The notes beneath the pieces were generated by a model that saw only the letters and a program-made list of their open reading frames with translations, ran no database searches and was not told the DNA's origin. The position numbers and the translations under genes were made by a program. From Erysipelotrichales bacterium (lineage in GTDB: Bacteria > Bacillota_I > Bacilli_A > Erysipelotrichales > Erysipelotrichaceae), in assembly GCA_017532345.1 (NCBI GenBank), contig JAFXJJ010000019.1, positions 1 to 37,831 on the forward strand: 37,831 nucleotides of DNA, written 5' to 3'. This document shows, in pieces, positions 5,531 through 35,414 of the stretch. Each line of letters opens with the position of its first letter. Positions within the stretch are counted from its first letter, which is position 1.

Positions 5531-6547
5531 ATGATAGAGGATATTAGATTGTCTTTAGTTGTAGATATGTGTGGATGTCCTAATCGCTGTAAGCATTGTT
5601 GGTTGGGGCATATGCCAAACACCAAAATGAAAGATGATATTGATGAATGGATAATTAATTATTTCAAACCATATTTTAAGCATATCGCATATTATAGCTG
5701 GTTAAGAGAGCCAGATTTTATAGAGAATTATAGAGAAAGATGGATTAAAGACAAAAAACTTTCTGTTGAATCTACCCCTATGCGCTTTGAATTGGCTTCC
5801 TTTTACCGTTTAGTTAGAGATCCTGAATATGTTGAATTTTTAAAAGAAGTTGGAACAAAGATTGTGCAACTCACATTTTTTGGACTAGAACAATTATCTG
5901 ATAAATATATTGGTAGAAAAGGGGCTTTTAATGAATTATTAGAAGCAAGTGAGATATTAATTGAAAATGGGATTGCTCCTAGATGGCAATGTTTTATTAA
6001 TGAAGAAAACAAAAATGAAATTATTGATGTTTTGAAGCTTTCTGAAAAATTAAAGCTTTCTGAAAGATGTAGAGAATTTGGAGAAGAGTTTAAGTTCTTT
6101 GTTCATCCTGGAAGTTGTGACGGCGAAAACTACAAGCTATATGATATAAGATTAAATAAGATGAATATTCCAAATGAATTAAGACCATATATGCTTGATA
6201 TTGATGAGTATTATTCGGAATCTGAATTAGTGGAAATGCTGAAGAATGATGAATCTATAGTAGATTTTGATTATGGTAATGATTTAGTATTAAATATCTC
6301 AAATAATCTTGACGTTTATTATAACTTCACACATATGAAGAAATCATGGTGCATTGGTAATTTAGAAAATGAAGAACCTGAGGATTTAATTAGAAAGGTT
6401 ATAAATTATGATGTAGATGCAATTAATAAGGCTAAGAATATATCTATTGCTGAGTTAGTTAAACAATTTGGTAATGCAACATCAGATAGAATGTTTGCAA
6501 TAGATGATTATAAAATGTATTTACTATTAAAATATTTAAGTGATTAA
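5531..6547 (+). CDS. Radical SAM protein of unknown function
   Basis: A 338-residue protein with an N-terminal radical SAM motif CPNRCKHC (Cys16, Cys20, Cys23), preceded by two further cysteines (Cys14 and the paired Gly-Cys). A conserved-looking WLGHMPN follows. Residues 100-165 contain the strand/helix pattern of a TIM-barrel core. A C-terminal WCIGNLENEEPE segment (Cys274) resembles the tail of SPASM-type proteins, but the full set of SPASM cysteines is absent. The substrate is unknown. The kinase gene starts 2 nt after its stop, so both are probably made together. The pairing suggests a small-molecule modification, which is inference only. Confidence 0.82.
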   Translation: MIEDIRLSLVVDMCGCPNRCKHCWLGHMPNTKMKDDIDEWIINYFKPYFKHIAYYSWLREPDFIENYRERWIKDKKLSVESTPMRFELASFYRLVRDPEYVEFLKEVGTKIVQLTFFGLEQLSDKYIGRKGAFNELLEASEILIENGIAPRWQCFINEENKNEIIDVLKLSEKLKLSERCREFGEEFKFFVHPGSCDGENYKLYDIRLNKMNIPNELRPYMLDIDEYYSESELVEMLKNDESIVDFDYGNDLVLNISNNLDVYYNFTHMKKSWCIGNLENEEPEDLIRKVINYDVDAINKAKNISIAELVKQFGNATSDRMFAIDDYKMYLLLKYLSD

Positions 6548-6549
6548 TT

Positions 6550-7368
6550 ATGTTGAATAAAGCTATTAATAAATGGGAATTATCTAATTTGAAATGCATT
6601 AATTGTAGTGAGAGTAAATTGGTTTATTCTGTGTATTCAAATATTTATGGTAATTGTATTTTAAAAATTGATTTAAATAATAATTTAGAAACTGAGTTTA
6701 GTTATCTTAATTGCTTCAAAGATACATGTGTATGTAAAGTATATGGATATGATAAAGAGATAAATGCATTACTATTAGAAAAAATTATTCCAGGCACTAC
6801 ATTAAGAAGTGAAATGCCATTAGATAAGCGTCTTAATGTGTATTATCATTTGCTATGTTATCTTCATAAATCAACAGATACTCAATTTGATTGCCCAACT
6901 TATCAAGATTGGTTCAAAGATGTTTTAAAAAATATTACTGAAATAAATAAGGAGTTTGAATTAAAATTAATAGAAGCAAATAGCATTTGTAATATGATGT
7001 TTGAAAAGTATAAGAATCATATGGTACTTCATGGCGACTTACATCATGATAATATCTTGCTTAATGATAAAGGCGACTATGTAATTATTGATCCTAAAGG
7101 TGTCACAGGACCTCCAATTCTTGAATTAGGGCGTTTTATCTTGAATGAATTAGATCTTGGGAATAATGTTAAGTCTATTGAACACGTAAAAGAAGTCGTA
7201 ATTGAAATTAGTAAGTTATTTAATTATGAATTTAAAGATGTTGTGAAAGTATTTTATATAGAAACAGTACTTGCAAATGCTTGGAATATTGAAGATGGAT
7301 TGAGCGTAAATTATTTACAACTACAAGTTGTTGATGAGTTATTAGAATGGATTAATGAGTATAAATAA
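6550..7368 (+). CDS. APH-like phosphotransferase (aminoglycoside/choline kinase superfamily)
   Basis: A 272-residue protein kinase-like-fold phosphotransferase. The catalytic loop HGDLHHDNIL (His161-Asp163, Asn168) and the metal-binding IDPKGVTGPP (Asp181) are intact, as in the APH(6)/hydroxyurea-kinase branch (Pfam APH_6_hur type). The N-terminal lobe has the pattern expected for ATP binding (LKID, then LLEKIIPG as hinge). It probably phosphorylates a small molecule. Antibiotic resistance should not be assumed, as many such kinases are metabolic. No clear SD precedes the ATG, which follows the radical SAM stop by 2 nt and so suggests translational coupling. Confidence 0.84.
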   Translation: MLNKAINKWELSNLKCINCSESKLVYSVYSNIYGNCILKIDLNNNLETEFSYLNCFKDTCVCKVYGYDKEINALLLEKIIPGTTLRSEMPLDKRLNVYYHLLCYLHKSTDTQFDCPTYQDWFKDVLKNITEINKEFELKLIEANSICNMMFEKYKNHMVLHGDLHHDNILLNDKGDYVIIDPKGVTGPPILELGRFILNELDLGNNVKSIEHVKEVVIEISKLFNYEFKDVVKVFYIETVLANAWNIEDGLSVNYLQLQVVDELLEWINEYK

Positions 7369-7393
7369 AAAACACCGAATTAATCGGTGTTTT
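7369..7393. terminator. Terminator of the radical SAM/kinase operon (bidirectional)
   Basis: Stem AAAACACCGA/TCGGTGTTTT, loop ATTAA, continuing into TTTTC on the + strand. The A-rich 5' flank would act as a U-run for the opposing tRNA-Leu transcript. Confidence 0.8.
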
Positions 7394-7403
7394 CTTTATA
7401 AAA

Positions 7404-7489
7404 TGGTCCCCAAGGTCGGACTTGAACCGACATGGTATCACTACCGAACGATTTTGAGTCGTTTGCGTCTGCCATTTCGCCACTCGGGG
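7404..7489 (-). tRNA. tRNA-Leu (CAA)
   Basis: A class II tRNA of 86 nt with encoded CCA. The acceptor strands CCCCGAG and CTTGGGG pair, the anticodon stem is AACGA/TCGTT, and loop CTCAAAA gives anticodon CAA (leucine, UUG codons). A long variable arm and T stem GTCGG/CCGAC are present. Confidence 0.96.
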
Positions 7490-7501
7490 AGGTACTTGTA
7501 T

Positions 7502-7530
7502 ATTATAACGAATTTGATGTTGTTAATCAA
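7502..7530 (-). promoter_or_regulatory. Promoter of tRNA-Leu
   Basis: On the - strand, TTGATT (7530-7525), 17 nt, TATAAT (7507-7502). The -10 lies 13 nt before the mature tRNA 5' end. Confidence 0.75.
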
Positions 7531-7560
7531 GAATTATTTGTTGATTTTGAGTATTTAACA

Positions 7561-7587
7561 CAAAAATAAAAGGCTATTAAGCCTTTT
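7561..7587 (-). terminator. Terminator of asnA
   Basis: Stem AAAAGGCT/AGCCTTTT with a 4-nt loop. On the - strand the stem runs into TTTTATTTTTG. It overlaps the asnA stop codon. Confidence 0.8.
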
Positions 7588-8599
7588 ATAATAAATGAAT
7601 ATTGTTTGCTTTGCAAATATCAAACATTTCTTTGCTCCATGCACTAGCTTGTACTTCACCAATATGTGCTTTATGAAGAAGCAGCATGCATAAACGAGAT
7701 TGTCCAATACCTCCACCCATTGTTAGTGGTAATTGATTACTTAGTAACATAGAATGGAATGGTAATGATGTACGATCCATACAATTTGCTTTTTCTAATT
7801 GCTCTAAAAGAACATTCTTATTAACTCTAATACCCATGCTTGAGATTTCCATTGCTTGGTCCAATACATGATCATAAATTAGAATATCACCATTTAATGA
7901 CCAATCATCATAGTCTGGAGCTCTTCCATCATGTTTATTTCCACTTTCTAGTACATCACCAATTTGCATGATAAAGACACTTTCGTATTCTTTACAAATA
8001 GCATTTTCTCTTTGCTTAGGTGTAAGACTAGGATATTTATTTTCTAATTCTTGAGTAGTAATAAATTTGATGTTTTCCTCGATGAATGGTGTAATTGAAG
8101 GGAATTGTTGAACTAAAAGGTTTTCTGTTTCCTTTACTGTTTTCATAATTGAACGAACAGTATTCTTCAATGTTTCAACATTACGTTCTTCATCTAAAAT
8201 AATTTTTTCCCAATCCCATTGGTCTACGTAAATAGAATGTAAGTTATCTAAATCTTCATCTCTACGAATGGCATTCATATCAGTATATAAACCTTCACCA
8301 AAGTTGAAATCATATTTCTTTAATGCCATACGTTTCCATTTAGCTAGACTATGAACAATTTCAAATTCATCATTAACTTCTTTGATATCAAAATGAACTG
8401 GACGTTCAACTCCATTTAAGTTATCATTTAAACCACTATTTTGCGAAACAAATAGAGGTGCAGAAACTCTTATTAATTTTAAATTCTCAGCCAAACGATT
8501 TTCAAATGTATCCTTAATTAGCTTAATAGCTACTTGAGTATCAATTAAAGATAGTTCAGAAGAATAATCTTTAGGGAGAATTAATTTACTTATAGGCAT
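7586..8599 (-). CDS. asnA: Aspartate--ammonia ligase (asparagine synthetase A)
   Basis: A 337-residue AsnA, making asparagine from aspartate, ammonia and ATP, with a class II aminoacyl-tRNA-synthetase fold. Recognisable family segments include LIRVSAPLF and [14 protein letters not shown] near the N-terminus, [22 protein letters not shown] with YVDQWDWE, and the C-terminal [17 protein letters not shown] motif-3-like stretch. Length is typical. AAGGAGTGA precedes the ATG. No T-box leader fits in the roughly 110 nt to the divergent chromate transporter gene, so regulation by tRNA-Asn is not supported here. Confidence 0.96.
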
Positions 8600-8708
8600 A
8601 CTAAATCACTCCTTAAATACATACTATTATATTTTATAATAATTTTACAAAAAAATAAATGATTTTATAAATAGTTAGTGTATAATATACGAGATTGAGA
8701 GGTATTAT

Positions 8709-9248
8709 ATGAATAGTTACTTAGATTTGTTTTTAACTTTCGCTAGAATAGGAGGTCTAACATTTGGTGGAGGATATGCGATGTTACCTATGTTAGAGAG
8801 AGAGTTAGTAGAAAATAAAAAATGGATTGCAGAAGAAGACTTAACAGATTATTTTGCAATTGGACAATGCACGCCTGGTGTTATTGCTGTTAATGTTGCT
8901 ACTTTTGTTGGAATAAAACAATTAGGTACATTAGGTGGTATAGTAGCGACACTTGGTGTAGTATTTCCTAGTGTTGTGATTATCACTGTCATTGCAGCAT
9001 TCTTATCTAACTTTGCAGAGTTAGAGGTAGTAAATCATGCTTTTGCTGGATTACGTGTATGTGTTTGTGTTTTGATATTTAATGCGGTTTCTAAACTGTT
9101 TAAGAAGTCTATTGTAGATCGATATACGATAGGTATTTTCTTATGTGTACTTGGATTAAGTGTTTTTACTAATCTTTCACCAATTGTATTTGTTGTTTGT
9201 TCTGGTATAGCTGGTGTAGTTATTAAAGTGAAGGGAGGAATAAACTAA
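8709..9248 (+). CDS. chrA: Chromate transporter, half-size subunit 1
   Basis: A 179-residue CHR-family membrane protein with about five or six hydrophobic segments. The conserved N-terminal FGGGYAMLPMLERELV motif and GQCTPGVIAVNVATFVG match the CHR domain. In many Bacillota the transporter is split into two half-size proteins encoded side by side, as here. The family exports chromate in characterised members, but the natural substrate in this organism is not known. A TATAAT at 8681-8686 is a probable -10. The next gene overlaps by one base (TAATG), indicating coupled translation. Confidence 0.9.
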   Translation: MNSYLDLFLTFARIGGLTFGGGYAMLPMLERELVENKKWIAEEDLTDYFAIGQCTPGVIAVNVATFVGIKQLGTLGGIVATLGVVFPSVVIITVIAAFLSNFAELEVVNHAFAGLRVCVCVLIFNAVSKLFKKSIVDRYTIGIFLCVLGLSVFTNLSPIVFVVCSGIAGVVIKVKGGIN

Positions 9249-13120: not shown

Positions 13121-13153
13121 AGAGATAACTAAATAATGATAGAGGTGTTTATT

Positions 13154-14074
13154 ATGGAAGAGAATAAAACAGGTATATTACTTGAATCCGGAACTAATGA
13201 ATTAGAAGTTATGGAATTTACTATTGCCGGTGAAGTATTTGGTATTAATGTAGCTAAGGTTACTGAAATCATGATTCCATCAGATGTTAAACCTATGCAA
13301 CATGCACATCCATGTGTTGAAGGTGTATTCAAACCACGTGGTAATGTTATTACAGTTATTGATTTACCTAAATATTTAGGCTTAGAAATTCCTGAAGATG
13401 ATCGTTCATTATTTATCATCACAAATTTCAATAAAATGGACGTAGCATTCCGTGTACAACGTGTAGTTGGTATTGCACGTATTAGTTGGACTGCAATTCA
13501 AAAACCAGATAAGATTATTTATGGAGGATCTGATGGTGTAGCAACTGGTCTAGCAGAATTTGAAGATCGTTTAATTACTATCTTAGACTTTGAAAAGATT
13601 GTTGCTGAAATTTCTCCTGAAACTTCAATTAAAGAAAGTGAAATTGATGAATTAGGTGAAAGACAAATTAGCAATGAGCCTATCGTTATTGCAGAAGACT
13701 CTGTATTATTAGCTAAGATGATTGTTGAATGCTTACATAAAGCAGGATATAGAAATATTAATCAATTTGATAATGGACAAGAAGCTTGGGATTATTTAAG
13801 TAGTTTACGTGAAGATCCTGACTTAAGAAATAAGGTGTCTTTAGTTATCACAGATATCGAAATGCCTAAGATGGATGGGCATCGCTTAACTAAGTTAATT
13901 AAAGATGATACTAAACTAAGAAATATTCCAGTAGTTATTTTCTCTTCTTTAATTAATGAAGAAACATATATTAAAGGTAAGAGTTTAGGCGCTGATGAAC
14001 AATTATCTAAACCAGAAATTGGTCATTTAGTAGAAGTTATTGACCATTTATTAAGAATTAGAAATGAAGCATAA
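13154..14074 (+). CDS. cheV: Chemotaxis coupling/response-regulator protein CheV
   Basis: A 306-residue two-domain protein that couples chemoreceptors to CheA and adapts through phosphorylation. The CheW-like domain spans about residues 8-160 (LEVMEFTIAGEVFGINVAKVTEI, GNVITVIDLPKYLG). The receiver domain spans about 175-305, with acidic pocket AEDS, phospho-acceptor aspartate in TDIEMPKMDG, and conserved Ser/Lys in FSS and SKPE. The upstream ATG at 13136 is out of reach of any SD, whereas AGAGGTG (13141-13147) is 6 nt from the ATG at 13154. It is monocistronic with its own promoter and terminator, and no other che genes are in the window. Confidence 0.95.
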   Translation: MEENKTGILLESGTNELEVMEFTIAGEVFGINVAKVTEIMIPSDVKPMQHAHPCVEGVFKPRGNVITVIDLPKYLGLEIPEDDRSLFIITNFNKMDVAFRVQRVVGIARISWTAIQKPDKIIYGGSDGVATGLAEFEDRLITILDFEKIVAEISPETSIKESEIDELGERQISNEPIVIAEDSVLLAKMIVECLHKAGYRNINQFDNGQEAWDYLSSLREDPDLRNKVSLVITDIEMPKMDGHRLTKLIKDDTKLRNIPVVIFSSLINEETYIKGKSLGADEQLSKPEIGHLVEVIDHLLRIRNEA

Positions 14075-14551: not shown

Positions 14552-14561
14552 AAAGATGTAT

Positions 14562-14660
14562 TCAGATTTAGATTATGATGCGTAAAGTGCCAAGTAAACA
14601 GGGAATTGTTACTGGACGAAAAAGCGTTGCCTTTGCGGTGTCATAGTCGATTCCCGCTGA
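14562..14660 (+). promoter_or_regulatory. Tetrahydrofolate (THF) riboswitch upstream of folT
   Basis: The sequence and pairing match the THF aptamer. P1 is TCAG/CTGA at the ends. P2 is TATGA (14574-14578) with TCATA (14641-14645), flanked by the conserved GCGTAAAGTG and GCGGTG. P3 is CCAAGTAA/TTACTGG with one bulge. The pseudoknot GGGAAT (14601-14606) with ATTCCC (14650-14655) is perfect. The downstream platform has a hairpin (14660-14667 with 14686-14693) whose loop carries CCTCC (14679-14683), complementary to the folT SD GGAGG (14712-14716). Control of translation is therefore likely, with weak termination also possible. Confidence 0.88.
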
Positions 14661-14723
14661 TCATAAATAGTCGCTTAACCTCCTTTTTATGATTAGTTTT
14701 AATTATAGAATGGAGGATTTATT

Positions 14724-15248
14724 ATGTGGAAGGATAGTTTATTAGAATTGCGCAAAACGAAGTCGATAGTAACGGCTGGATTATTATCGGCATTAAATGT
14801 AGTACTAGGGATGTTTCAGATTATTGTGATACCTCAAGTATTAATATTTTCATTTAATTTTTTAAGTGTTTCTGCATTAGGGTTCTTATGTGGTCCATTT
14901 GTTTGTGGAATAGCAGGAGCTATTTGTGATATTTTAAAGTTTCTATTTAATCCTACTGGAGAGTTTTTCCTAGGGTTTACATTAAATGAATTCTTGGGTG
15001 GTTTCATTTATGGTCTAGTGCTTTATAAAAAGAAGGTATCCTTAACAAGATGTTTCTTTGCGAAAGCTATCGTTAATATAGTCATTAATATACTATTAAC
15101 ACCATTATGGTTAAATATCTTGTATGGTAAGGCATGGATTGCATATGCTTCAACACGTTTAATTAAGAACATTGTAGGACTTCCAATTGAAAGTTTTGTG
15201 ATGTATTATATCTTAAAATTGGTGTCTAGAATAAGACAAAAAAACTAA
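14724..15248 (+). CDS. folT: Folate ECF transporter S component FolT
   Basis: A 174-residue membrane protein with about six hydrophobic segments, the substrate-binding subunit of an energy-coupling-factor (ECF) vitamin transporter. The start LRKTKSIVTAGLLSALNVVLG, the LNEFLGGFIYGLVLYKK loop and the C-terminal ASTRLIKNIVGLPIES helix match the FolT branch. It needs the shared EcfA/EcfA'/EcfT module, which is not in this window. The preceding THF riboswitch independently supports folate as the substrate. SD GGAGG (14712-14716) lies 7 nt before the ATG. A weak hairpin (AACTAAT/ATTAGTT) overlaps the stop. Confidence 0.92.
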   Translation: MWKDSLLELRKTKSIVTAGLLSALNVVLGMFQIIVIPQVLIFSFNFLSVSALGFLCGPFVCGIAGAICDILKFLFNPTGEFFLGFTLNEFLGGFIYGLVLYKKKVSLTRCFFAKAIVNIVINILLTPLWLNILYGKAWIAYASTRLIKNIVGLPIESFVMYYILKLVSRIRQKN

Positions 15249-15260
15249 TGGGCATATTAG

Positions 15261-15289
15261 TTGTTGGATAAATTATACTATGTTATTAT
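15261..15289 (+). promoter_or_regulatory. Promoter of the intergenic structured RNA
   Basis: TTGTTG (15261-15266), 17 nt, TATTAT (15284-15289). The predicted start near 15296 falls exactly at the first base-paired position of the RNA described in the next entry. Confidence 0.62.
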
Positions 15290-15295
15290 GTAGTC

Positions 15296-15515
15296 AACCA
15301 AAAGATGATGGAGGTTCATACACTCCAATAACAGAAGCTATCTAAATGTAGTTTCTATATCTCCATAATAAATGCCATCCTTTGGGCAATTACAAATAGC
15401 AAAAGCGTAAATTTGTTAATTTGTTCCCTAAGCAACCATACATTTTATTCAGTAAGTCCCTAACTACTGTTGCTATTTGTAAAGAAAGAGGAGGATAATC
15501 TATCCTCCTTTTATT
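15296..15515 (+). ncRNA. Putative structured small RNA between folT and sigK
   Basis: A noncoding unit of about 220 nt with its own promoter and an intrinsic terminator. The 5' domain has CCAAA/TTTGG plus GATG/CATC (15298-15307 with 15376-15385), ATGGAG/CTCCAT (15308-15313 with 15361-15366) and an 8-bp hairpin AGAAGCTA/TAGTTTCT (15333-15356). The 3' domain is closed by a perfect 13-bp helix, TTACAAATAGCAA/TTGCTATTTGTAA (15390-15402 with 15470-15482), enclosing hairpin CAGTA/TACTG. The motif TCCCTAA occurs twice in predicted unpaired positions (15425, 15457), which resembles C-rich target-binding motifs of small RNAs. There is no open frame longer than eight codons with an SD. It does not match 6S, SRP, tmRNA or known riboswitches by eye. 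The function is unknown. Confidence 0.6.
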
Positions 15516-15518
15516 TTG
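15490..15518. terminator. Terminator shared by the structured RNA and sigK
   Basis: Stem GGAGGATA/TATCCTCC, loop ATC, followed by TTTTATTTT on the + strand. On the - strand the tail is CTTTCTTT, a weaker U-run. It lies at the stop codon of the opposing sigK gene. Confidence 0.85.
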
Positions 15519-16197
15519 TATTAAATAGCTTTAATAATTTAACGAATGCTCTTTTCTCTAACTTAGATACATAACTACGCGATATATTCTTTTCTTTAGC
15601 GATTTGTCTTTGAGTAAGAGGTTGTTGATTATTTAAACCATATCGCATAATAATTATTTCCTTTTCCTTATCTTCCAGTGTGTCTATATACTCATATAGT
15701 TTCTGATACTGTTCTTTTTTATACAGCATATCAGTAACATCAACTGTAGTTTCAGCATCAATTACATCTACTAAACTAATCTCATTACCATCTTTATCAT
15801 AGCCAATTGGATCTTGAAGCGAAATATCATTTAAGGTCTTTTTATTTGATCTTAAATGCATTAATATCTCGTTCTCAATACAGCGTGCAGCATAAGTTGT
15901 AAGTTTATTTTGTTTGGTGTTATCATACGTATCAACAGCTTTAATTAAGCCAATTGTACCTATACTAATTAAATCATCACTAGTATAATGATTATTCTCA
16001 TATTTCTTAACAATATGTGCAATTAATCTAAGATTATGCTCGATTAGAATTCTTCTAGCTTCCTTGTCTCCTTTAGATAGTCTTTCAAGCATTTCCTTTT
16101 CTTCTTCATCATTTAGAGGAGTTGGAAAGCTTTGTGATTTTAAATATCCTAATAAAGGGAAAAATGATGTCAATAACATAATAAATGTTGTAAACAT
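15511..16197 (-). CDS. sigK: RNA polymerase sporulation sigma factor SigK (pro-form)
   Basis: A 228-residue sigma-70 family factor closely resembling pro-sigma-K, the late mother-cell sporulation factor. The hydrophobic N-terminus (about 1-20) is the expected pro-sequence. Region 2 carries ARRILIEHNLRLIAHIVKKYEN, SIGTIGLIKAVDTY and TYAARCIENEILMHLRS. Region 4 has an RMYGL-like turn followed by an HTH (QRQIAKEKNISRSYVSKLEKRA). The gene is uninterrupted, with no skin-type element. The SD AGGTGA is 5 nt before the ATG. A CATATAAT on the - strand (16220-16213) could be a sigma-E-type -10, which would fit known sigK control but has no clear -35. Confidence 0.92.
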   Translation of the reverse strand: MFTTFIMLLTSFFPLLGYLKSQSFPTPLNDEEEKEMLERLSKGDKEARRILIEHNLRLIAHIVKKYENNHYTSDDLISIGTIGLIKAVDTYDNTKQNKLTTYAARCIENEILMHLRSNKKTLNDISLQDPIGYDKDGNEISLVDVIDAETTVDVTDMLYKKEQYQKLYEYIDTLEDKEKEIIIMRYGLNNQQPLTQRQIAKEKNISRSYVSKLEKRAFVKLLKLFNTK

Positions 16198-20624: not shown

Positions 20625-20954
20625 ATGGATGAACAAGTAAAAGCATACATAGATAAGTATCCGAAGGAAATTATTGATATGTTTAATATATTACGGAATA
20701 TTATCTATGAGAATATGGTATCTAAACCAGAGGAAATATTATGGGCGAGGTTACCAAGTTATTATGTTGGAGAGTCTTTTGTAAGATTCATTCCTTTTAA
20801 AAATCATATTAATATTGAAGCTAAAGTAATAATTAAATATAAGGAGCAATTATCTAATTATAAAATAACACCTAAAGGAATGTTGCAAATTTATCTAAAG
20901 CAAGATATTCCAGTAGATGTATTGAAACAAGTGTTTATTGAAAAATTAAACTAA
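20625..20954 (+). CDS. DUF1801 domain protein
   Basis: A 109-residue protein resembling the DUF1801/YdhG family. The start has the usual pattern (DEQVKAYIDKYPKEIIDMFNILRNII), followed by EEILWARLPSYYVGESFVRFIPFKNHINIEA. Family members have been linked to iron handling or DNA-repair-like folds, but none of this is established and I assign no function. AGAGGT lies 8 nt before the ATG. It lies between the Mbeg1-like gene and a convergent HAD gene. Confidence 0.75.
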   Translation: MDEQVKAYIDKYPKEIIDMFNILRNIIYENMVSKPEEILWARLPSYYVGESFVRFIPFKNHINIEAKVIIKYKEQLSNYKITPKGMLQIYLKQDIPVDVLKQVFIEKLN

Positions 20955-21015
20955 AGTACAAAAGTAAAGAATAGTTAATTTCAAAATAACGACAAATGAA
21001 CTTTATTTGTAAAGC

Positions 21016-21046
21016 AATAGCCCAGAAGTATAATCTGGGCTATTTT
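21016..21046. terminator. Hairpin terminator between convergent DUF1801 and HAD genes
   Basis: An 11-bp G+C-containing stem, AATAGCCCAGA/TCTGGGCTATT, with a 7-nt loop and TTTTAC on the + strand. The - strand tail is poor in T (GCTTTAC). It overlaps the HAD stop codon. Confidence 0.7.
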
Positions 21047-21777
21047 ACTATATTCATATGCTTAGGGTCTATATTATAAATTACATCTTTTCTTTCGACG
21101 ATAATTTGCATTTTATCTAATAAGTCATTATTTGAGGAGATTTTATCTAATAATTCTCTAGTAGGATTAATTGCTGTAGGATGTCCAGTATATTTAAACA
21201 TCGTTAAATCACCTGTAGTATCACCATATGCATAGCTATTGTCTAAATCAATATTATATTTTTCTGCTAGCTCTAGAATGGCTTTTTCTTTACTTCTAGA
21301 ATCCCACATAGGAACAATTCCACCTGTATATATACCGTAATTATCAGTTTCATAAATTGTACCACGCCAATCATCAAAGCGATATTTAAGTGCCATTTCA
21401 TTTACTAATTCAAAAGGTGAACCACTAATGGCAATCACTATGTGGCCTTGATTTTGATGGTATTTAATACGATCACGTGTATAAATATATACACGATCAC
21501 CTTTTTGTTCAATTACTTTTCTAGCAATGTGCTCTACATGTTCTTTACTAATACCAATTGTTGTTTCTTTGAAGATATCAGTCATTTTAAGTAAATAATC
21601 ATCATATTCACCCTGACGTCTATCCCATTTCATATATGCTGGACGAACATCATCAAACCATTTGCTTTCACTAATGATTTCATGAGTTATAAATTTTTTA
21701 AATAATTCTGTGATTAAACCTTCACGATAGATTGTACCATCGATATCAAAAAATGCAGCAATTTTCTTTTCTTCCAT
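21040..21777 (-). CDS. HAD-IB family phosphatase (phosphoserine phosphatase-like)
   Basis: A 245-residue HAD phosphohydrolase of the IB subfamily. Motif I is FFDIDGTI (nucleophile Asp11, Asp13), motif II is IAISGSPFELV, the lysine of motif III is in SKEKAILELAEKYN, and motif IV is YGDTTGDLTMF. The substrate is unknown: IB members include phosphoserine phosphatases, and the helical cap of about 80 residues fits this. An AAGGAGGA SD precedes the ATG. Its - strand promoter (TTGTTT-N16-TATAAT) lies in the region shared with the divergent phoP/phoR genes, near a PHO-box-like array, so phosphate control is possible. Confidence 0.88.
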   Translation of the reverse strand: MEEKKIAAFFDIDGTIYREGLITELFKKFITHEIISESKWFDDVRPAYMKWDRRQGEYDDYLLKMTDIFKETTIGISKEHVEHIARKVIEQKGDRVYIYTRDRIKYHQNQGHIVIAISGSPFELVNEMALKYRFDDWRGTIYETDNYGIYTGGIVPMWDSRSKEKAILELAEKYNIDLDNSYAYGDTTGDLTMFKYTGHPTAINPTRELLDKISSNNDLLDKMQIIVERKDVIYNIDPKHMNIVK

Positions 21778-28077: not shown

Positions 28078-28739
28078 TTGGAATTATCGCTGCAATGAAA
28101 GAAGAATTAGCTGAAATCGAAGCATTAATGACTGAAACAAAAGAAGAGATTATTCATAATACATGCTTCGTTACTGGGAAAATGGAAGGTAAGGAAGTAG
28201 TTGCTGTTTTAAGTCGTGTGGGTAAGATTAATGCAACTGTATCTACAATGTTGTTACTAGAAAGATTTAATATTGATAAGATTATTAATGTTGGTAGTGC
28301 AGGTGGTCTAAAACATGATATGCGTTTAAAGGATGTTGTTATTTCTACTAAGGTTAAACAACATGATATGAACATCGAATTATCTGGACAACCAATGTAT
28401 TTTGATGCAGATGAAGAGTTAGTAAAGAAGGCTTTTGAGGCAAGTAAGTTAATTCCTAATATTACTGTTAGTAAAGGGTTAATTGTATCTGGAGATCAAT
28501 TTGTAATGGCTAATGAAGCAACTCATATTGTTGAGAAATTCCCAGATGCATTATGTAGTGAAATGGAAGCAGCAGCTGTTGCAAATACTTGTTGGAGAAT
28601 GGAAGTACCATTTGTAGTTATTCGTTCAATTTCAGATTTCCCTCATACTGGAGAAAATGAAATGACATTTGAAGAATATTTAGTATACGCTGCTAGAAAT
28701 TCAGCAATCGTTACGCAAGCATTAGTTAAAAGCTTATAA
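28074..28739 (+). CDS. mtnN: 5'-methylthioadenosine/S-adenosylhomocysteine nucleosidase
   Basis: A 221-residue MTA/SAH nucleosidase (Pfs). It hydrolyses MTA and SAH to adenine and the thio sugar, recycling methionine and starting autoinducer-2 precursor formation. MIGIIAAMKEEL at the N-terminus, INVGSAGGL in the purine/ribose site, SEMEAAAVA and ISDFP (catalytic aspartate) are all present. The frame starts at a TTG at 28056, but AGAAGGAG lies just before the ATG at 28074, which is used here. It removes the SAH left by methyltransferases such as its upstream neighbour. Ends the operon. Confidence 0.96.
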   Translation: MIGIIAAMKEELAEIEALMTETKEEIIHNTCFVTGKMEGKEVVAVLSRVGKINATVSTMLLLERFNIDKIINVGSAGGLKHDMRLKDVVISTKVKQHDMNIELSGQPMYFDADEELVKKAFEASKLIPNITVSKGLIVSGDQFVMANEATHIVEKFPDALCSEMEAAAVANTCWRMEVPFVVIRSISDFPHTGENEMTFEEYLVYAARNSAIVTQALVKSL

Positions 28740-28745
28740 GAAAAC

Positions 28746-28776
28746 AAGGTCATATCAAATTAGATATGACCTTTTT
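28746..28776 (+). terminator. Terminator of the yqeG-mtnN operon
   Basis: An 11-bp stem, AAGGTCATATC/GATATGACCTT, loop AAATTA, followed by TTT. It lies 6 nt after the mtnN stop. Confidence 0.85.
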
Positions 28777-28804
28777 ATAAAAAGAAAAGAAGCTTTCGCT
28801 TCTT
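28777..28804 (-). terminator. Terminator of the thioredoxin-like gene
   Basis: Stem AAGAAGC/GCTTCTT, loop GAAA on the - strand, followed by TTCTTTTTATA. It touches the stop codon of the - strand gene. Confidence 0.78.
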
Positions 28805-29309
28805 ATTCAAATTCTACACTTGTGTTTGTTTCTAACCAAGATTTAACTTCACTTCTAGTAAATGGTTTTTCAACATCATATTCTAAAGCAGATACAGGAT
28901 GTAGAACACCTTCATCATCAGCTTCATAAGCAACGAAAGCAGGGAACGAAGAGAATCCATATTCGCTCTTTAATTTAGAAGCAGTTACGTATTCTAATTC
29001 AGATACAACCATAAACTTAAATGGTAATTCATATGTACTTGATAAACCTAAATCTCTAGCAACTAAACATAAGATTTGGTCAATAACATAATCACTGTCT
29101 TCATCGTTATCATAATAGAAAACAATGTTTTCAGCTTCAGGATTAGGCATTGCTCTTGCATTTAGCATTTGAGAAGTAGTAATAAATTCTTCCATTGAAG
29201 CAACATTAGTGCTAGGCTCTTCAGTAGGCGCAAACATTTTAAATGTAGCATAACTCCATGACATTACTGTACTGACTAACATCAGTGAAATAATAGTTTT
29301 CTTTAACAT
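28803..29309 (-). CDS. Membrane-anchored protein with a possible thioredoxin-like fold
   Basis: A 168-residue protein with an N-terminal signal anchor (KK followed by IISLMLVSTVMSWSYA, residues 3-20) and an outer domain. Residues 60-150 read like a thioredoxin fold: a first strand NIVFYYDNDEDSDYV, a long helix, a strand FKFMVVSE and a Phe-Pro-Ala-Phe motif that could be the cis-proline loop (SSFPAFVAYE). The active-site Cys-x-x-Cys is missing: the position after the first strand is acidic instead. The function is unknown, and fold and location are inferred. An AAGGAG SD precedes the ATG. It is monocistronic with its own promoter and terminator. Confidence 0.72.
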   Translation of the reverse strand: MLKKTIISLMLVSTVMSWSYATFKMFAPTEEPSTNVASMEEFITTSQMLNARAMPNPEAENIVFYYDNDEDSDYVIDQILCLVARDLGLSSTYELPFKFMVVSELEYVTASKLKSEYGFSSFPAFVAYEADDEGVLHPVSALEYDVEKPFTRSEVKSWLETNTSVEFE

Positions 29310-35057: not shown

Positions 35058-35414
35058 ATTTTATACACCGCAATCGCTGCCAATATAGATTGGTAGAGGA
35101 AAGTCCATGCTCGCATAATCTGTGATGATTATAGTGTTTGTGCTAGGCCAATAAATAAGCCTAGGTAAGTATAACTTAACGGCTGAAAGAAACCTAAGGC
35201 GCAAGCTATGGTGTATTTCTATAAAAGTGCCACAGTGACGTAGTCCTATTGGAAACGATAGGGGTGGAACGCGGTAAACCCCACAAGCGAGAAACCCAAA
35301 TTTTGGTCGGGGAACTTTACAAGGCGAAACGAAGCTAAGTGAAGACATAGCAATATGTAGATAAATGGTTGCACTCAGTAATGAGAACAGAACATGGCTT
35401 ATGTAGTATAAAAT
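35058..35414 (+). ncRNA. rnpB: RNase P RNA component (type B)
   Basis: The catalytic RNA that cuts tRNA 5' leaders. The universal blocks are present: GAGGAAAGTCCATGCTCG near 35096, GTGCCACAGTGACG, GGAACGCGGTAAACCCC, GAGAAACCCAAATTTTGG and ACAGAACATGGCTTATG near the 3' end. P1 closes the molecule as ATTTTATAC (35058-35066) with GTATAAAAT (35406-35414). The overall arrangement follows the Bacillus (type B) RNA, with a shorter P12-like region. It begins on the base after the gpsB stop codon, so it may be processed from a shared transcript. The 5' and 3' ends given are those of P1. Confidence 0.96.

Follow-up and report, generated by a model that had tools for sequence, protein, structure and literature searches.

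A predicted structured small RNA with two open C-rich loops between folT and sigK in an Erysipelotrichales bacterium

The window, the whole stretch of 37,831 nt (37.8 kb) that was analysed, contains a small-RNA unit in the gap between folT and the convergent gene sigK. The folT gene (14724-15248, plus strand) encodes a folate-family ECF transporter S component (NCBIfam TIGR04518, 127.5 bits) and has a THF riboswitch on its 5' side (14561-14661, plus strand; Rfam RF01831, 59.5 bits where the gathering score is 36). Its convergent neighbour, sigK, occupies 15511-16197 on the minus strand (NCBIfam TIGR02846, 306.8 bits, over its cut-off). The predicted small RNA itself, about 217 nt, spans 15296-15512 on the plus strand, with a likely start 48 nt past the folT stop codon. 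Both strands of this region were searched for open reading frames, and the longest with a start codon had 26 aa, while none had a Shine-Dalgarno sequence; an earlier reading of the sequence only had likewise seen no credible ORF here. A hidden small protein or type I toxin was rejected, as neither strand has an ORF with a ribosome-binding site. Elsewhere in the window, a class B RNase P RNA was observed at 35061-35405 (plus strand, 292 bits), and a listed minus-strand ORF that overlaps it (35061-35348) is probably spurious.

Directly ahead of the unit we observed a promoter-like sequence (15261-15289, plus strand) with the layout that had been proposed, TTGTTG (-35, 15261-15266), a 17-nt spacer and TATTAT (-10, 15284-15289). 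The -35 element is weak, with 3 of 6 consensus positions. A TG at 15281-15282, one base 5' of the -10, was overlooked in the sequence-only reading and makes this an extended -10 promoter. A generic promoter scan omits it. The 103 kb of non-coding strand contained 10 matches to the class TTGN3-N14-TGNTATNAT, eight of them upstream of genes, and the 736 kb of coding strand contained 5. Since the density of the class in non-coding DNA is approximately 14 times that in coding DNA (419 kb of the genome), we consider the small-RNA promoter credible. Position 15296 lies 7 nt past the -10 and is a plausible start; it had also been taken for the first paired base, which is actually 15298. At the other end, a terminator scan of both strands recovered the claimed strong intrinsic terminator at 15486-15512 (plus strand), with 12 bp, a 3-nt loop and a U tract, and readable in reverse for sigK.

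The full RNA had a predicted folding energy of -58.9 kcal/mol (z -6.5), and none of 200 shuffled sequences was equally stable. The body without its terminator (15296-15482) gave a z of -4.0 with 300 shuffles or -5.1 with 40 shuffles, within about the top 1-2% of 538 segments tiled across the 37.8 kb. Several other segments gave comparable z, and structure alone is therefore not proof of a functional RNA. These other strongly folding segments included 20861-21048 (both strands) and 28701-28888 (plus strand), with z of about -5.4, and their folds probably include intergenic terminators.

Two domains, a branched 5' domain and a 3' domain with a perfect 13-bp helix, were both present in the predicted fold as the sequence-only reading had described them. 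From the pair probabilities, the 5' domain (15298-15385, plus strand) is closed by nine pairs, CCAAA/UUUGG and GAUG/CAUC, and holds a 9-bp hairpin at 15333-15356. Within it, GGAG at 15310-15313 pairs with CUCC at 15323-15326 in the best fold or with CUCC at 15361-15364 in an alternative (-23.5 and -22.7 kcal/mol), so that the suggested choice between two CUCC copies is real in the energy model, with a gap of 0.8 kcal/mol. A linker in this domain, AUAUCUCCAUAAUAAAUGC (15357-15375, plus strand), is unpaired in the minimum-energy fold and complementary to the starts of neighbouring genes, and may be a pairing site. The 3' domain (15390-15482, plus strand) is closed by 13 Watson-Crick pairs between 15390-15402 and 15470-15482, again judged from pair probabilities. 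It carries two plus-strand hairpins, at 15421-15435 and 15450-15469, that contain the first (15425-15431) and second (15457-15463) copies of UCCCUAA, and both present an identical CCCUA pentaloop closed by a U-A pair and open with a probability of at least 0.99. The statement that TCCCTAA occurs twice in unpaired positions thus held for the inner CCCUA of each copy but not for the outer U and A, which mostly pair together. Taken as a structured non-coding transcript with a promoter and a terminator, the unit is well supported by its sequence.

In the small RNAs LhrC and RsaE, Shine-Dalgarno regions are bound by duplicated UCCC motifs that lie in a loop or a linker (PMC4132741, PMC9217828). LhrC uses three UCCC sites to bind a G-rich stretch ahead of the start codon of lapB (PMC4132741), and RsaE has two UCCCC seeds (PMC9217828). 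Our small RNA resembles LhrC of Listeria monocytogenes (PMC4132741) in having redundant UCCC motifs in hairpin loops together with a single-stranded stretch, whereas LhrC is multicopy, unrelated in sequence and carries the motif in its terminator loop as well, and the small RNA is single copy with about 217 nt. Each LhrC site can bind a G-rich ribosome-binding site (PMC4132741), while the targets of the small RNA are only candidates. With RsaE/RoxS of staphylococci and bacilli (PMC9217828) it shares a sequence duplication that yields two C-rich seeds, but the RsaE/RoxS seeds are UCCCC, used against Shine-Dalgarno sequences (PMC9217828), compared to a CCCUA motif in pentaloops here. RsaE/RoxS are also widely conserved, in contrast to the small RNA, which has no detected relative or Rfam match. 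The likeness to C-rich-seed small RNAs drawn in the sequence-only reading was a fair analogy in form, and independent support did not extend it to function.

The Shine-Dalgarno targets envisaged in that reading did not stand out, as UCCCUAA targets were not enriched genome-wide over controls. TTAGGGA with an ATG 2-14 nt further on was counted 55 times versus 42 for a reversed-pattern control, which is not clearly above it, and the enrichment of TTAGGGA at gene starts was no greater than that of a scrambled G-rich motif. Six genes with UUAGGGAG at their ribosome-binding sites are target candidates only: csrA, moaC, parA, and those for an OYE-like oxidoreductase, an amino-acid permease and a small membrane protein. 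The csrA gene was matched to the NCBIfam csrA model slightly under its cut-off (E 4.6e-18), and the other five were identified by eye. The ribosome-binding site of csrA (80 aa; about 231-490 of L347, G000:C10:43000-45000), UUAGGGAGG, complements the whole UCCCUAA heptad.

Our preferred reading, to which we assign about an even chance, is a lineage-specific trans-acting regulatory sRNA of about 217 nt, produced from its own promoter and by read-through from folT, and acting by antisense pairing at ribosome-binding sites. Computation provided the promoter-like and terminator signals, the stable fold, the open loops and linker, the lack of an ORF, the single copy and the absence of a family match; transcription, the pairing mechanism and any target are inferred. 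A SigA-type extended -10 promoter would drive the RNA, and G-rich Shine-Dalgarno regions would be contacted by the CCCUA loops on the two hairpins of the 3' domain. A second pairing site would be the open CU/AU linker at 15357-15375 in the 5' domain, which the alternative GGAG:CUCC pairing could partly close. The reading also draws on there being no co-directional gene immediately 3' of the unit, on UUAGGGAG at the ribosome-binding sites of real genes such as csrA and moaC, and on the linker match to the starts of three of the five nearest genes. Two of the features expected of a trans-acting sRNA with C-rich loops were observed in the sequence, namely an own promoter, an intrinsic terminator and no ORF, along with a duplicated unpaired C-rich seed in the form of the two CCCUA loops (at least 0.99 open). 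The small RNA is probably of a known functional kind, an ordinary regulatory sRNA. Against the sRNA reading stand the searches of all genomes covered, which gave no homologue, the UCCCUAA targets, which were not enriched, and the linker pairing, which is post hoc, AU-rich and energetically unremarkable except for cheV. In addition, the folT mRNA could be the sole user of the terminator and of some of the structure. If the RNA is expressed, it would be a compact and easily tested species-restricted sRNA in an Erysipelotrichaceae-like lineage, combining the C-rich-loop strategy of Listeria and Staphylococcus with a terminator shared with a riboswitch-controlled vitamin transporter. By itself it leaves general knowledge of sRNAs unchanged.

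A terminator scan from the folT stop codon (15248) to 15296 found no terminator, and because none separates the two, the small RNA is not transcriptionally isolated from folT. A read-through transcript would carry the small RNA at its 3' end, and the folT mRNA controlled by the THF riboswitch probably has this sequence as its 3'UTR as well. The unit had been called stand-alone, and this was borne out as far as its own promoter and terminator are concerned, but it probably doubles as the folT 3'UTR. Bacterial sRNAs that derive from or overlap 3'UTRs share a terminator with the coding gene ahead of them. The small RNA is like them in this respect, and differs in its likely start 48 nt past the stop codon and in having a promoter-like sequence of its own. 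We think it possible, though on the unlikely side, that the element is mainly a structured folT 3'UTR, either a stability or 3'-end element or the source of a 3'UTR-derived RNA under THF-riboswitch control, with an internal promoter that is weak or inactive and a terminator that serves folT and sigK. The uninterrupted path from the folT stop to the RNA and the THF riboswitch ahead of folT are consistent with this, as is the need of folT for a terminator, of which 15486-15512 is the first. However, a credible extended -10 promoter precedes the fold at exactly the right spacing, and the structured body goes far beyond what a terminator needs (z of about -4 to -5 without it).

We searched for relatives of the small RNA by BLAST in 60 related genomes and then in the family (273 genomes), and also in phages and plasmids, with no credible relative observed in any of these sets; the short family-wide matches mostly cover the terminator hairpin. 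A covariance model (R1) built from one sequence, the small RNA itself, also gave no credible relative across the family, the order (316 genomes), the class (395 genomes) or the downstream flanks of approximately 90 sigK genes, with the larger scans run under Infernal's stricter filters, which a very diverged relative could escape. Two weak R1 matches (L166 and L168) were antisense to genes and were rejected as chance, and others (L165, L167 and the class-level G382, E 0.029 in 395 genomes) were low-scoring. In the one other same-genus genome examined, the RNA was missing both between folT and sigK and across the remaining sequence. Between the folT-like ORF and sigK, that genome has two ORFs, one methyltransferase-like, the other short (about 100 aa), sigma-factor-like and adjoining sigK (L003, G001, oriented about 1181-1489). 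Four of the 273 genomes contained the two-motif pattern, with unrelated spacers in all but this one, and viral contigs showed it too often for it to be informative. The searches gave no homologue through which conservation or covariation could support a function, which is the chief limit of the case, and the unit is a probable, lineage-restricted small RNA.

The element could instead be a functionless intergenic relic or a chance fold, transcribed or not, which we consider rather improbable. The order- and class-wide searches that returned no relative point in this direction, as do its absence from the same-genus species and the several segments of the region with a similar z. Speaking against it are the alignment of promoter, fold and terminator as one unit, the 0 of 200 shuffles that matched the stability of the fold, and the duplication of the loop heptad.

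A search of Rfam with 15230-15540 gave no match at gathering score (RsaE/RoxS and LhrC included where represented), and up to E 10 only sub-threshold matches, mostly to the terminator hairpin. That the element belongs to no recognised family was hence upheld even at permissive thresholds. A 6S RNA (RF00013) was rejected, as the sole 6S match of the genome, C26:12947-13113, lies on another contig (41.4 bits, under the cut-off); the small RNA also has two separate domains compared to the long rod with a central bubble of 6S. A mobile repeat or MITE was rejected on the basis of the single copy. The branched 5' domain with its two nearly isoenergetic folds, and a genome that encodes CsrA, would suit an RNA that binds a ligand or a protein, be it an orphan riboswitch-like aptamer that ends in a terminator, a sponge for CsrA or some other structured class, but we regard this as very unlikely, given that no relevant Rfam match appears up to E 10, no co-directional gene lies immediately 3', 6S is located elsewhere in the genome, and the GGA motifs lie in predicted stems and not in loops. 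As for a riboswitch in particular, Rfam returned no aptamer match and the next gene is convergent.

Within the complement of the linker (15357-15375) lies CATTTATTATGGA, a sequence also present at the start of three of the five nearest genes. The matches, all made by linker positions 15364-15374, comprised 11 nt at the cheV start (13148-13158), 10 nt at the folT start (14717-14726, start codon included) and 11 nt in codons 4-7 of sigK (16177-16187). Elsewhere in the genome, 1 of 356 gene starts attains 10 nt of complementarity to the linker, which makes the match to three neighbours unusual. About 380 kb of genome stretches served as background. Among 403 duplex energies the linker pairings ranked 3 (cheV), 25 (folT) and 44 (sigK), which is unremarkable except for cheV, and the folT duplex energy was not significant compared to shuffles. 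The pairing is AU-rich and the segment was picked post hoc, and we treat pairing to cheV, folT and sigK as a suggestive post hoc lead. That the orphan RNA belongs to a new family and regulates translation of its neighbours folT, cheV and sigK through one switchable linker seems to us highly improbable; if true, folate uptake, chemotaxis and sporulation would be linked together. A control that tiled segments across 419 kb gave at least three such neighbours at few other places, for example L342 and L343, the latter with many repeated hits. Segments of L343 (G000:C58:1-15200, about 5900-9100, minus strand) complement up to four of five neighbouring gene starts, which suggests that this stretch has repeated or paralogous gene starts.
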